A DNA stretch of 10,269 nucleotides from an uncultured Elusimicrobium sp. Its GTDB lineage: Bacteria; Elusimicrobiota; Elusimicrobia; Elusimicrobiales; Elusimicrobiaceae. The translations under genes were made by a program, and so were the position numbers. The notes below the pieces were generated by a model. It worked only from the letters and a program-made list of their open reading frames with translations, was not told where the DNA came from and ran no database searches. Location of the stretch: positions 1-10,269 of the forward strand of contig CAMGSK010000044.1 of the NCBI GenBank assembly GCA_946061795.1, in the 5' to 3' direction. Position 1 is the first letter of the stretch. Each line of letters starts with the position of its first letter. Shown here in pieces: positions 1 through 10,240 of this stretch.

Positions 1-40
1 CACATAATCCAGCACCTAGGCGTTTATCTGCGTAAGGCAT
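1..40 (-). CDS. Partial start of a downstream tail gene, product unknown
   Basis: An ATG at 40-38 opens a frame that reads MPYADKRLGAGLC and leaves the window at base 1. A purine-rich GGAAG lies four bases upstream of the ATG, a fair ribosome binding site. The start overlaps the end of the predicted chaperone frameshift extension (stop at 16-18), which fits the tight gene packing of this operon. In siphophages the gene after the tail assembly chaperones is usually the tape measure protein, but thirteen residues cannot show that. A GTG at 15-13, in the frame of the chaperone extension and directly after its stop, is a less likely alternative start because it lacks a well-placed SD. Confidence 0.4.
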   Translation of the reverse strand, partial: MPYADKRLGAGLC

Positions 41-6997: not shown

Positions 6998-8362
6998 TTA
7001 CCACGTAATAACCGGTCCGCAATTACGTAAAATTTGATTTACTCCGTCGGCCAAGCAGTCCACTTGGTCATCGTGCGCGTGCTTCATGTCCTGCCTAAAC
7101 GCCACGCACTCATCCAAAAAATCTTCCATTCCCTCCTGCGGAATGAACACTTTCCCCGCCGCCACATACGGCACGATGTCGAGCACGCGGGAAAATTTGT
7201 CTTTCTGCCGCGCCAGCGGAACAATGGGCAGGTTCTCCCGTACCAGCTCCTGTATCAGCCCCGTCCCGCTTACTTTGTCCTCAATAAAAAACGCGCCCAC
7301 CGTGCCGAATCGGCTCTGCATTTGCCGGTAAAACACCCGGGCCGTAGAGAGCAGTTCCGGGGCTTCAAACTTGCCCCGCACCTGCGCCAGCAAATAGGCG
7401 TTGCCCTGCACCAGCCCCCACGCTTGGAAAACGGTAAAGTCATTGGTTTGGCCCGTTTTCTGCGCGGTATCGGCCACGATCACCACCCAAGAGGGCGATG
7501 CCGGAAGCTGCGCGTATCGTTTAAACCAAGCCAGCTTCAGCACGTTTCCGCCCGCCACCGTGGGGCTTTGCTGGTAAAGAGCTTCCCAGGCAATCGGCCC
7601 GACGGTCCTCTTCTGCGCTTCCAAGAACTCCAGCGGGCGCAGCTCCGGGAACAACGCTTGCCCCTCCGCCGAAACAGCCGGATAACGGAACGAAAGAACC
7701 CCTTTCAAATCCCGCTTGAGCGTGCCAATCAAATCGTCCACGTGCCACCGGCTGTGCACCACCACAATCATGCTGGGCGTTTGCCGGCGGCTGACGATAT
7801 CGGCCCGAAAGCGGTCCAAGATTTTTTCCCGCATCGTTTGGCTGTACGCTTCTTCCCGGTTTCGGTACGGATCGTCAATCAAGGATATGTGCGACGGGTG
7901 ACCGATGTTCCCGGCTCCCATTAAGCGGAAATCCACCTGTCCGCCGGCCGTACCGTCCGGCTTAACCAAGCCGAGCGTCTCGATATTTTCCGCCTGTCCG
8001 TTCCCCGTCCGCGCCCCGAATACGGCCAAGTAGCGCGGGGAACGTAAAATCAGCTTTACGTTGAGCGACGTTTCAAAGAGCAATTTGTCGGACGCGGTGT
8101 AATAGTTAAACCGCCTGTCCGGGTGCAACCCTGCCAGCCACGCCAAAAAGTGCCGCATAATGGTGGATTTGCCGTGCTGTACGGGGGCCTCCACCGTGGC
8201 GACGGGTAAGCCGCCGTTTAAAAACCGCCAGTAAACTTCGTACTGCAAAAAATCGCAAAACGCTTTAACCCACCAGTTTGTTTTTTGCCCGACCCCGCCG
8301 ACATAGCGGTAAAACGCATAAAAATCACTCTGCAATGTCCGGCGCATCTCGTCCTGCGTCAT
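6998..8362 (-). CDS. terL: Terminase large subunit (packaging ATPase and nuclease)
   Basis: A 454-aa two-domain packaging motor. The ATPase half has a Walker A-type P-loop VEAPVQHGKST (57-67), with K65 in the lysine position, a Walker B strand HISLIDDP (158-165), and a coupling-type motif VVVHSRWHVDD (200-210). The RNase H-like nuclease half has acidic residues at D298 (VIVADTAQKTG), E361/D362 (FFIEDKVSGTGL) and D431, D432 and D435 (HAHDDQVDCLAD), the usual metal-binding set. The YQQSPTVAGG segment (263-272) links the two halves as in many prophage terminases. GGAG lies seven bases before the ATG, and the first 38 bases overlap the small subunit gene. It is complete, of normal length, and no key residue is missing. 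Confidence 0.96.
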   Translation of the reverse strand: MTQDEMRRTLQSDFYAFYRYVGGVGQKTNWWVKAFCDFLQYEVYWRFLNGGLPVATVEAPVQHGKSTIMRHFLAWLAGLHPDRRFNYYTASDKLLFETSLNVKLILRSPRYLAVFGARTGNGQAENIETLGLVKPDGTAGGQVDFRLMGAGNIGHPSHISLIDDPYRNREEAYSQTMREKILDRFRADIVSRRQTPSMIVVVHSRWHVDDLIGTLKRDLKGVLSFRYPAVSAEGQALFPELRPLEFLEAQKRTVGPIAWEALYQQSPTVAGGNVLKLAWFKRYAQLPASPSWVVIVADTAQKTGQTNDFTVFQAWGLVQGNAYLLAQVRGKFEAPELLSTARVFYRQMQSRFGTVGAFFIEDKVSGTGLIQELVRENLPIVPLARQKDKFSRVLDIVPYVAAGKVFIPQEGMEDFLDECVAFRQDMKHAHDDQVDCLADGVNQILRNCGPVITW

Positions 8363-8771
8363 GCAAACGCTCCGCCATAATTTTTTTAAGGTCGTCTTCC
8401 GATATTTTCTCGGTTTTAAGGGTTAAATCCACCTTGCTTTCTGCGGGAGCCAGCAAGCTGATAAGGCTGATGGCCGCCTGAGCCTGCTTATCCGACATAC
8501 ATTCCCCGCCCGCCAAAAAATAGTTCCGCAAACGTACCGCAAAGGCCCGCATGGCAATCCGTGTTTTACCTAATCCGTCCGGCACGGCTTCGGCAAATAC
8601 TTCGGCGATGTTGTCTTTTAACCGGTTGCGCTCGTGCCATTTTTTGAGCCCTTCGCTTTTGGCCTTCGGGCTAGGCTGGTTTTCGCTTGTAAAACGGTGC
8701 TCCGCCGGAGGGACTACGCCGTTCCTCCCGCTTGCTTTGGCCTTTTTCTTTTCCGTTTTGCTGGTCGTCAT
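8325..8771 (-). CDS. terS: Terminase small subunit (probable, DUF5681-like N-terminus)
   Basis: A 148-aa protein directly upstream of, and overlapping by 38 bases, the large terminase, the usual place for the DNA-recognition subunit. The N-terminus is lysine rich and continues RFTSENQPSPKAKSEGLKKW (residues 27-46), similar to the F-x-x-G-x-SGNP-type start of DUF5681 and phage small-terminase proteins. The centre (47-110) is helical and the end (112-148) is acidic. No helix-turn-helix can be called with certainty by eye. The ATG at 8771 has no recognisable SD: it follows closely on the T-tract of a predicted terminator (8791-8814). Translation may be weak or depend on the leader structure. The role is inferred from position and the N-terminal motif. 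Confidence 0.75.
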   Translation of the reverse strand: MTTSKTEKKKAKASGRNGVVPPAEHRFTSENQPSPKAKSEGLKKWHERNRLKDNIAEVFAEAVPDGLGKTRIAMRAFAVRLRNYFLAGGECMSDKQAQAAISLISLLAPAESKVDLTLKTEKISEDDLKKIMAERLHDAGRDAPDIAE

Positions 8772-8790
8772 ATTGAAAAACCGGGGGAAT

Positions 8791-8814
8791 AAAAAACCCC
8801 GCGTTATAGCGGGG
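8791..8814 (-). terminator. Intrinsic terminator B' in the terminase leader
   Basis: CCCCGC (8797-8802) pairs with GCGGGG (8809-8814) around a 6-base loop and is followed on the minus strand by TTTTTT. It lies just 20 bases before the terminase start codon and downstream of promoter-like P2. As written it would stop transcription entering the late operon unless it is suppressed. The stem and tail share an identical 18-bp sequence with terminator B at 9028-9045. Confidence 0.8.
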
Positions 8815-8825
8815 CGTAAGAGTGG

Positions 8826-8879
8826 AAAAAAAGAGAACAGACCACTCAGGCCAGGATTCGGCCTAAATAATCAGTTCTC
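8826..8879 (-). terminator. Long 5' hairpin with U-tract after promoter P2 (A')
   Basis: On the minus strand GAGAAC (8879-8874) and GTTCTC (8838-8833) enclose a continuous arm of Watson-Crick and G-U pairs down to AGGCC/GGCCT, with loop GAATCCT. TTTTTTT follows (8832-8826). Four or more pairs are G-U on the minus-strand RNA and would be A-C mismatches on the plus strand, so the structure favours minus-strand RNA. It begins about five bases after the predicted P2 start. It may terminate transcription or act as an RNA signal. Confidence 0.65.
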
Positions 8880-8890
8880 GCAGTAACCAT

Positions 8891-8919
8891 AGTTTAAATA
8901 AGTTTTAGCGAAAAATCAA
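8891..8919 (-). promoter_or_regulatory. Promoter P2, minus strand, before the terminase operon
   Basis: TTGATT (8919-8914) and TAAACT (8896-8891) are separated by 17 bases, four of six matches to each sigma70 consensus box. The predicted start is near 8884, just before hairpin A'. The -35 box overlaps the stop of the 28-aa ORF. It is weaker than P1, and its call rests partly on the identical layout of the two cassettes. Confidence 0.5.
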
Positions 8920-9002
8920 GTGATACTTAAAAGAAATGAAATTTTTATCAATAAATCCACGATTTCCCGCATTAACGTCAAACATTCCCAGATTTTCTTC
9001 AT
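8916..9002 (-). CDS. Candidate 28-aa leader peptide between the two cassettes
   Basis: An ATG at 9002 with AGGAG nine bases upstream opens a 28-codon frame that ends in TGA. The peptide starts MKKIWECLTLMREIVD and ends LLIKISFLLSIT. It is mostly hydrophobic from residue 8 on, with two or three charged residues on one face, so a short membrane or amphipathic helix is possible. It lies downstream of P1 and its two terminators, and its stop overlaps the -35 box of P2. The same frame is open farther upstream through the terminator hairpins, but that portion is probably chance. I do not recognise a family. It could be a true small peptide (for example a toxin or regulator) or a chance ORF. Confidence 0.38.
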   Translation of the reverse strand: MKKIWECLTLMREIVDLLIKISFLLSIT

Positions 9003-9034
9003 ATACGATTTCTCCTGCATTAATTTCGGGGAAT

Positions 9035-9058
9035 AAAAAACCCCGTCGGTTGACGGGG
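9035..9058 (-). terminator. Intrinsic terminator B after promoter P1
   Basis: CCCCGTC (9041-9047) pairs with GACGGGG (9052-9058) around a 4-base loop and is followed by TTTTTT on the minus strand. The stem start and tail are identical over 18 bp to terminator B'. It lies 75 bases after the P1 -10 box, compared with 77 for B' after P2. Confidence 0.82.
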
Positions 9059-9073
9059 CTTCGGATTGTTTGC

Positions 9074-9126
9074 AAATAAAAAAGCGTACAAACACCACCC
9101 AATTAAGGGCGGATGTATATACGCTT
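9074..9126 (-). terminator. 5' hairpin with U-tract at the P1 start point (A)
   Basis: On the minus strand AAGCGTA (9126-9120) pairs with TACGCTT (9088-9082), with inner helices ACA/TGT and CCGCCC/GGGTGG around loop TTAATT. TTTTATTT follows. One inner pair is G-U on the minus strand and an A-C mismatch on the plus. The hairpin begins at the predicted P1 start (about 9126), so a transcript stopped here would be a bare hairpin of about 50 bases, either a tiny RNA or an RNA signal for readthrough. Confidence 0.65.
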
Positions 9127-9132
9127 ATGGAT

Positions 9133-9161
9133 AGTATAACTAATCAAACGCTATTTTTCAA
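9133..9161 (-). promoter_or_regulatory. Strong promoter-like sequence P1, minus strand
   Basis: TTGAAA (9161-9156), a 17-base spacer, and TATACT (9138-9133) match five of six bases in each sigma70 box with ideal spacing. It faces the terminase operon, with its predicted start near 9126. It is the best promoter-like sequence I found in the window. It is followed within about 100 bases by two terminator-type hairpins. Confidence 0.75.
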
Positions 9162-9458: not shown

Positions 9459-9487
9459 ATAAATATCCCCCCTGTATCGGGGGGATA
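9450..9487 (-). terminator. Intrinsic terminator of the toxin-antitoxin-like operon
   Basis: TATCCCCCC (9464-9472) and GGGGGGATA (9479-9487) form a perfect 9-bp stem with a 6-base loop. On the minus strand it is followed by TTTATTTATTTTA, so it should end transcription of the minus-strand operon 12 bases after its last stop. The plus-strand 55-aa ORF ends just before it, so two transcripts converge here. The plus-side tail is less U-rich. Confidence 0.85.
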
Positions 9488-9498
9488 GCTTTGAAGCT

Positions 9499-9975
9499 TT
9501 ATTGTTTTAAAACGGGTTTTAAACTATATCCCACCGCGTCAAATAAGCGCAGGATAGTGGATAGTTGCGGCGCGCGGCCTCCGTTTTCCATGCGGGCAAT
9601 ACTGGGCTGGTTGATACCTGTTTTGTCAGCCACTTGCTGTTGCGTCATTTTGGCTTTTTTACGCAGTTCTACAAAACGAGCTACCAGCTCAGCCACGGCT
9701 TCATCTTCGCGCGGTGCGTCGGGCCAGTCCTGCCCGTTAAGATACAGTTCGGATTCGGCCAAATCTAAATTCTCATTCCAACGCACCCCGCACCCGCCGA
9801 AGGCTACCTCCGCCCGTTTAAATAAATTCCAGTTTTCCAACGCGTGAAAAACGGGAATTTCATCCAACAGTTGTTTACAATCGTATTTTTTAAATTCCCC
9901 GTTTTCAAACAGTACGCCCAAAAACATATCTTCCAACGGGTATACTTTGCGTATTTTTAACCATTTGGTCGTCAT
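9499..9975 (-). CDS. DUF2442 domain fused to XRE-family HTH regulator (antitoxin-like)
   Basis: A 158-aa protein. Residues 5-82 match DUF2442: a strand pair IRKVYPLEDMFLGVLFENGEFKKYD, the PVFHALENWNLFKRAEV turn, and VRWNENLDLAESELYLNG. Residues 98-157 are an XRE-type helix-turn-helix of the HigA sort: ELRKKAKMTQQQVADKTGIN, SIARMENGGRAPQLSTILR, then AVGYSLKP. It probably binds DNA to repress its own operon and may neutralise the DUF4160 partner. DUF2442 is often encoded alone next to DUF4160, so the fused HTH is a notable form. The start at 9975 has GGAGG five bases upstream; the frame extends to 10002 without a good site. The stop is followed by a strong terminator. Antitoxin activity is inferred from pairing. 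Confidence 0.82.
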   Translation of the reverse strand: MTTKWLKIRKVYPLEDMFLGVLFENGEFKKYDCKQLLDEIPVFHALENWNLFKRAEVAFGGCGVRWNENLDLAESELYLNGQDWPDAPREDEAVAELVARFVELRKKAKMTQQQVADKTGINQPSIARMENGGRAPQLSTILRLFDAVGYSLKPVLKQ

Positions 9976-10012
9976 AATTACCTCCCTCCTCCCCTTAATC
10001 AAGGGGAGGGAG
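9976..10012 (-). promoter_or_regulatory. Hairpin across DUF4160 stop and DUF2442-XRE ribosome binding site
   Basis: On the minus strand CTCCCTCCCCTT (10012-10001) is followed by loop GATT and AAGGGGAGGAGGGAGG (9996-9981). The adjacent pairing gives a nine to ten-pair stem with CTCCCC. An alternative register could pair CCTCCC with the SD GGGAGG itself. The stem contains the last bases of the first gene (stop 9997-9995), so ribosomes finishing that gene would melt it. This is the arrangement expected for coupling the two proteins. Confidence 0.6.
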
Positions 10013-10240
10013 TTTTACCACTTTCCGTTCATTCCACATTTTTAAAAGTTCCGCTTTGTGCGGTTTGGCCCATTGTTTAACCAGTTTTTCCGCCGTCTTA
10101 GGCAAGTTCCCTTTTACTTTAAGCGTTTCAATTTCAAAACTGGCTTTAAATTCCCCGTATTCAGCGTGAAAATGGGGTGGATTATGCTCTCTATACAGTA
10201 AGCTGATGACTATTCCGTAAAATCTGGCAATTTCGGGCAT
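9995..10240 (-). CDS. DUF4160 protein (toxin-antitoxin-like partner)
   Basis: A complete 81-aa protein that matches DUF4160 closely: MPEIARFYGIVISLLYREHN at the start, then the signature EHNPPHFHAEYGEF (residues 18-31) with histidines at 19, 23 and 25, a LPKTAEKLVKQWAKPHKAELLKMW helix (46-69), and a short KLPPLD end. DUF4160 genes are commonly found next to DUF2442 genes and the pair has been predicted to be a toxin-antitoxin module. The histidine cluster suggests metal or nucleotide binding but has no proven role that I can state. AGGAGG lies about eight bases before the ATG. The stop is 19 bases from the start of the DUF2442-XRE gene, so the two form one operon. Confidence 0.87.
   Translation of the reverse strand: MPEIARFYGIVISLLYREHNPPHFHAEYGEFKASFEIETLKVKGNLPKTAEKLVKQWAKPHKAELLKMWNERKVVKLPPLD

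Follow-up and report, generated by a model that had tools for sequence, protein, structure and literature searches.

A promoter followed by two terminators recurs before the packaging genes of phages of one bacterial genus and suggests antitermination control

What would a promoter achieve if two terminators follow it directly, and why would that arrangement stand, twice in series, before the packaging genes of a phage? The question is raised by the stretch of DNA analysed here (the window), which is one entire 10.3-kb contig of a draft genome and whose late genes encode a large terminase, portal, prohead protease and HK97-type capsid (Pfam/PHROGs). The host is suspected to be a bacterium of the gut Elusimicrobiota (Candidatus Avelusimicrobium). 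A promoter placed directly before two terminators would be useless as insulation, and by analogy with known systems it has the layout of antitermination control. The same unit before the packaging genes of related phages suggests that a factor letting RNA polymerase through both terminators is needed. We propose, at a probability of roughly 0.7, that the units serve temperate phages as leaders of the late operon, at which a promoter-loaded factor gives readthrough of the two terminators after induction.

The window holds two minus-strand units, at 8783-8919 and 9028-9161, each beginning with a sigma-70-type promoter, behind which come two hairpins that run into U-tracts, a long one (T1) and then a short GC one (T2). 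In unit 1, the promoter P1 (9133..9161, minus strand) matches the consensus at 10/12 positions, with TTGAAA at 9161-9156, a spacer of 17 nt and TATACT at 9138-9133. Its T1 (9078..9126, minus strand) folds into a hairpin at 9126-9082 (-26.4 kcal/mol, z -6.2) with T6 at 9083-9078, and its T2 (9028..9062, minus strand) combines a GC hairpin at 9062-9037 (-18.2 kcal/mol, z -4.8), T6 at 9040-9035 and CCCC at 9031-9028. Unit 2 has P2 (8891..8919, minus strand; TTGATT at 8919-8914, 17 nt, TAAACT at 8896-8891), T1' (8826..8879, minus strand; hairpin at 8879-8833, -28.9 kcal/mol, z -6.3; T7 at 8832-8826) and T2' (8783..8815, minus strand; GC hairpin at 8815-8796, -14.3 kcal/mol, z -3.3; T6 at 8796-8791; CCCCC at 8787-8783). 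All four hairpins fold more stably than shuffles (z -3.3 to -6.3), and for T1 and T1' alike 0/200 shuffles were as good as the native fold. The long T1-type hairpin is itself terminator-shaped, which gives each unit two tandem terminators. A distance of 242 nt separates the -10 boxes of P1 and P2, and a 41-nt direct repeat (73% identical) with a spacing of 244 nt contains T2 and T2'. An initial annotation had described two units with the same order and spacing, and we recovered every element on the minus strand together with both distances.

P2 is weak and may be decaying. Its 8/12 match, counted by hand, falls under the 9/12 cut of our promoter scan, and it is therefore outside the scan list; it can be aligned with the promoters of the 10 other units, the nearest being that of genome G051 (70%). 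Promoter-like sites as such are not in excess in the window (8 found versus 7.7 expected from shuffles). A possible 28-aa hydrophobic peptide ORF lies between the units (8916..9002, minus strand; ATG at 9002, stop at 8918-8916, AGGAG upstream), its stop overlapping the -35 box of P2; a search of the 65 other genomes of the genus gave nothing significant for it (best E 0.355). A scan of the window against Rfam gave no family at gathering score.

Directly downstream of unit 2, a putative small terminase gene (ORF 8325..8771, minus strand) has its start codon 19 nt past the T2' U-tract. It is named from position only, having no Pfam or PHROGs match, and its homologues (cluster C9) occupy the same place in relatives. 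The first recognisable late gene is that for the large terminase (6998..8362, minus strand; Terminase_6C, E 6.6e-8; phrog_38, E 4.9e-86). On the other side, the contig ends ~1.1 kb upstream of unit 1 and carries small cargo genes at 9499-10240 (minus strand), a DUF4160 gene and then a DUF2442 plus helix-turn-helix gene (Pfam), which form a toxin-antitoxin-like pair in a cargo position upstream of the late unit. That cargo position differs between phages, with a SocA/Panacea gene, for example, in locus L161. After the cargo genes, a terminator-like hairpin (9464..9487, minus strand; a 9-pair stem with 6 GC pairs and a T-rich tail) would shield the late operon from transcription that arrives from upstream.

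To see where else the unit occurs, we searched 149 genomes of the order and a reversed control with the spaced pattern TTGA-N19-TANACT-N38..68-T5-N15..45-GGGGNT5. There were 11 matches in 10 genomes and 0 in the control. By folding, 10 of the 11 matches were real units, found in 9/66 genus genomes and including the two in the window; the eleventh (G069, of another family) was discarded as a chance match, with a fold of only -9.9 kcal/mol and no terminator pair. A further unit in an IMG/VR contig (UV2; L002) brings the total to 11 distinct units. The large terminases closest to that of the window are those of this contig (80% in the best segment) and of G051 (L007/L026, 76-77%), and both phages have a single unit directly upstream of the late genes. 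In a viral collection, the pattern gave 18 matches, two of which were units (L032, on the UV2 contig, and L161, the unit of G102); the other 16 were judged by eye to be unlike units. Two further scans of that collection returned L161 again and no additional unit, and 50,697 phage records gave no match at the DNA level. No unit was found in the ~1.5 kb flanks of 18 loci with more distant terminases (L008-L025; 15 from the genus and 3 from a different family within the order), so phages of the order do not generally carry it. Literature searches on Elusimicrobi prophages, antitermination, late promoters and put listed nothing that describes a leader of this kind for the host group. The units represent a late-operon leader, conserved and modular, that is shared by phages of one genus.

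Ten of the 11 units precede terminase genes, and window unit 1 precedes unit 2. Sequence and fold give the layout promoter-T1-T2 in 11/11 units, with T1 ending in 6-8 T and T2 in 5-6 T throughout. Where a unit precedes terminase genes, the first late start codon, as assigned by us, lies 17-24 nt after the T2 U-tract (10/10), and no TTGnnn-15..19-TAnnnT site occurs from the -10 box to 60 nt beyond that codon (none in 10/10), a search confined to sigma-70-type promoters. Because T1 and T2 lie between, transcription of the late genes from the unit promoter, or from anything upstream, needs readthrough. The initial annotation had placed the late operon under antitermination, and both the promoter-then-terminators layout (11/11) and the lack of a sigma-70-type promoter after T2 (10/10) speak for it; no antiterminator gene was recognised among the proteins scanned.

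Conservation starts at the -35 box, the preceding 30 nt being only 31-62% identical between units. The top upstream identity (62%) is that of G102 and G007, which have an upstream terminator in common. In G102, G007 and G028, a terminator-shaped hairpin lies within ~21 nt of the -35 box; by the same test, there is none within 400 nt upstream in UV2, G051, G010, G105, G005, G057 or window unit 1.

The terminases behind the units are of several types. By BLASTP, the large terminases form three clusters with no between-cluster link below E 0.9: the first holds the window, UV2 and G051; the second G102, G057, G005, G028 and G007 (Terminase_3/phrog_2, in two subgroups 27-28% identical); and the third the fused small-large terminases of G010 and G105. 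Profiles make clusters 1 and 3 distant kin, with phrog_38 matched by both the window and G105. The apparent fusions, each in one reading frame (L183:892-2559, minus strand, in G010; L184:514-2121, plus strand, in G105), have an N-terminal Terminase_2 domain, which falls below cut-off in G010. Terminase_2 is matched by the small subunit of G102 as well as by the fused N-terminus of G105, and the small subunits of the window, UV2 and G005 have no family match.

Given this position, the conserved block might be a cos or pac packaging site for the adjacent terminase, its terminator shape being incidental and the CCCC being part of it. Besides standing directly before terminase genes, the block has CCCC within a few nt after the T2 U-tract in 11/11 units (for example, window 9028-9062 and 8783-8815) versus 6/68 other CCCC..GGGG terminators in the collected genus loci, a count that is inflated, since all 6 are from loci fetched with a CCCC-containing pattern. 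However, G102 and G005 have nearly the same unit (T1 94% and T2 89% identical), yet their large terminases are only 27% identical and their small subunits differ (Terminase_2 versus no family match), and the block begins at the -35 box of a promoter. We therefore hold a packaging site to be very unlikely. The CCCC after T2 is complementary to the GGGG arm of T2, yet is transcribed past the stop point.

Comparison of the units shows separate histories for promoter, T1 and T2. Window unit 1 and the unit of G105 are identical over 32/32 nt of the promoter and 32/32 nt of T2 (GCCCC..CCCC), while their T1 hairpins are 44% identical, which is background; against all other units, the T1 of window unit 1 is likewise at background (43-52%). 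G028 and G007 have identical promoters and T2 stems and a T1 identity of 55%.

This exchange bears on whether T1 acts like the put RNA of phage HK022, as the initial annotation had raised, by binding polymerase and giving protein-free readthrough of T2 and later terminators. As described for HK022 (PMC9378689), put RNA has two stem-loops of shared sequence and acts in early operons. The resemblance is that of an RNA hairpin made right after a promoter, T1 beginning a few nt past the predicted start as putL does (PMC9378689). T1, by contrast, is variable, having been swapped for unrelated hairpins between units whose promoter and T2 stayed (44% and 55% identity); it has a U-tract of its own; it belongs to the late operon, whereas put acts in early ones; and it is a single hairpin before T2, not two. 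A put-type RNA is thus scarcely credible here, and we do not retain it.

For the proposed antitermination, a factor loading at the promoter would fit better than one reading the hairpin, because T1 differs between units that have kept one and the same promoter. That promoter, T1 and T2 have been swapped independently points to the promoter, not the hairpin, as the part readable by a loading factor. A quite improbable but specific idea is that T1 is an exchangeable specificity cassette, replaced by an unrelated hairpin at least twice (window unit 1/G105 and G007/G028). If T1 does more than stop transcription, it may act as an RNA switch specific to its type and diversify in the manner of an immunity region, so that, for instance, the late genes of a superinfecting relative would stay closed to the factor or short RNA of a resident prophage.

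The same comparison altered our understanding of the doubled unit, which had first been taken as a duplicated control element. Window units 1 and 2 are 60% identical in the promoter, 49% in T1 and 78% in T2. T1' of unit 2 is nearest to the T1 of G007 (69%), and T2' is 84% identical to the T2 of G010. Because each unit resembles those of other phages more than its neighbour, the pair joins two lineages and is not a recent tandem copy. Nor is the paired layout found in homologous phages: the nine other unit-bearing loci (8 genomes and the IMG/VR contig) have one unit each, and the doubled form is seen only in the window.

Control promoters were drawn from the collected loci. In a strict test, two strong terminators followed 6/80 promoters of the form TTGAAA-16..18-TTATACT with 170 nt of downstream sequence, namely five units and one host RNA gene. 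A looser folding test gave two terminators after 16/82 such promoters (five units, six host RNA copies and five others).

A unit could be read as a small-RNA gene with tandem terminators, its short hairpin RNA acting elsewhere and the late genes being reached by readthrough from further upstream or from an unseen promoter. The genus-wide host RNA by tRNA genes is likewise arranged as a promoter, a long hairpin with U-tract and another terminator, and T1 alone could be a ~50-nt RNA. We consider this reading unlikely: units whose promoters are identical do not conserve the sequence of T1, 11/11 units are at the same place before late genes (window unit 1 before unit 2), and terminator-shaped hairpins stand close upstream of the promoter in G102, G007 and G028.

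The host RNA gene itself was met beside tRNA genes at 8 loci in 8 genus genomes (L066:1501-1640, L072:1501-1640 and L093-L098). Its layout is a CTTGAAA promoter, a ~70-80 nt hairpin, a U-tract and a second terminator. The hairpin has a pseudoknot-like core (AACCTATTTTAGGGTTATGCCC.GTAAAAGGGC), and the gene matches no Rfam family at gathering score.

Several possible marks of the unit were set aside. The sequence GGGGTTTTTTATT is present in ordinary terminators of the genus, and CTTGAAA is not phage-specific, its C being present in 41/57 other promoters. A covariance model (R1) found, among the matches listed, 9/10 genus units, three of them outside its training set (G007, window unit 1 and G010); window unit 2 was not among the matches listed. 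R1 was rejected as a discriminator, as ordinary bidirectional terminators score alike (G024, E 4.2e-6). Covariation was modest, with both sides changed in 4/28 pairs and a covariation term of +0.86; in this alignment of seven sequences, several pairs are broken in 1 or 2 of 7. A three-sequence set gave nothing useful in terms of covariation.

The control logic is probably antitermination of the Q/AlpA type, judged by analogy. The host-type promoter of the unit would fire at all times, and polymerase would stop at T1 (~50-65 nt past the -10 box) or T2 (~90-110 nt past it), such that a lysogen would make short RNAs only. After induction, a phage or host factor would load on polymerase at the unit promoter, and the loaded polymerase would pass both terminators, allowing packaging and head genes to be expressed. 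The window's additional unit, which comes from another lineage and stands in series with the first, would tighten the block. The longer sequence L161, the phage of G102, encodes an integrase and an S24-type repressor and is therefore temperate.

Known systems resemble this arrangement to different degrees. In lambdoid phages, a late promoter, PR', with a terminator directly downstream is under control of Q (PMC6606751). The units are similar in having a promoter ahead of late genes with a terminator directly downstream in a temperate phage. They differ in having two terminators within ~110 nt, no recognised Q and another host group; moreover, they show no enrichment of the -10-like pause element that Q promoters have in the first transcribed bases (at least 3/6 matches in 8/11 units versus 38/57 other promoters). 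AlpA of Pseudomonas aeruginosa loads at an element between -35 and -10 and acts at the alpB and PA0807 promoters, the latter with two terminators (PMC7969949). Here the likeness is a promoter separated from the first gene by just one or two intrinsic terminators. AlpA differs by controlling lysis genes and another operon, whereas the units precede packaging genes and protein loading at them is proposed. GafZ of the Caulobacter gene transfer agent cluster is described as an antitermination factor unlike Q or AlpA (PMC11150451). It likewise serves a head/packaging-type cluster, but there the terminator follows the first gene and consists of three 150-bp repeats. The known antiterminators Q, AlpA and GafZ have little or no sequence in common, so leader anatomy may reveal new ones that homology would miss. 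With the unit, phages of a little studied bacterial group have a late-control element that is defined and can be tested, and the hunt for a new antiterminator can concentrate on its carriers.

In agreement with the initial annotation, we recognised neither a Q-like nor an N-like gene in the window, and no antiterminator family was recognised there or among the upstream proteins scanned in relatives. Upstream regions were compared at 10 loci, to which the window and G105 supply only 1.1 and 0.4 kb. A small CxxC-x17-CxxC protein is encoded upstream at 6/10 loci by tblastn (G102, G005, G007, G051, G057 and G028), with only 28/39 residues matching in G028, and G010 has a possible counterpart, read by eye. 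A 93-aa protein (phrog_625, no Pfam match; L161:2502-2783, minus strand, in the phage of G102) lies upstream of the cargo region at 6/10 loci, with homologues in G005, G007, G028, G057 and UV2. A larger zinc protein is found in 7/10 loci, of family C16 (G102, G005 and G007) or C26 (G057, G028, G051 and G010). None of these proteins matches an antiterminator family, and single-sequence structure models of two of the zinc proteins were too poor for use (mean pLDDT 54 and 39). A conserved small regulator outside the window had been named as something to search for; two small proteins and a larger one recur upstream, in 6-7/10 loci, but none has an antiterminator family match, and we regard the small zinc protein, the 93-aa protein and the C16/C26 zinc proteins as candidates only.

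Two features of the promoters themselves were also observed. TRAT stands just upstream of the -10 region in 6/7 promoter haplotypes, but the haplotypes are related. In G051 (L153:1580-1640, minus strand), the late promoter has its -10 box doubled by a 16-nt direct repeat (two copies of TATACTCTTACTGTGG), which creates another extended -10-like site.
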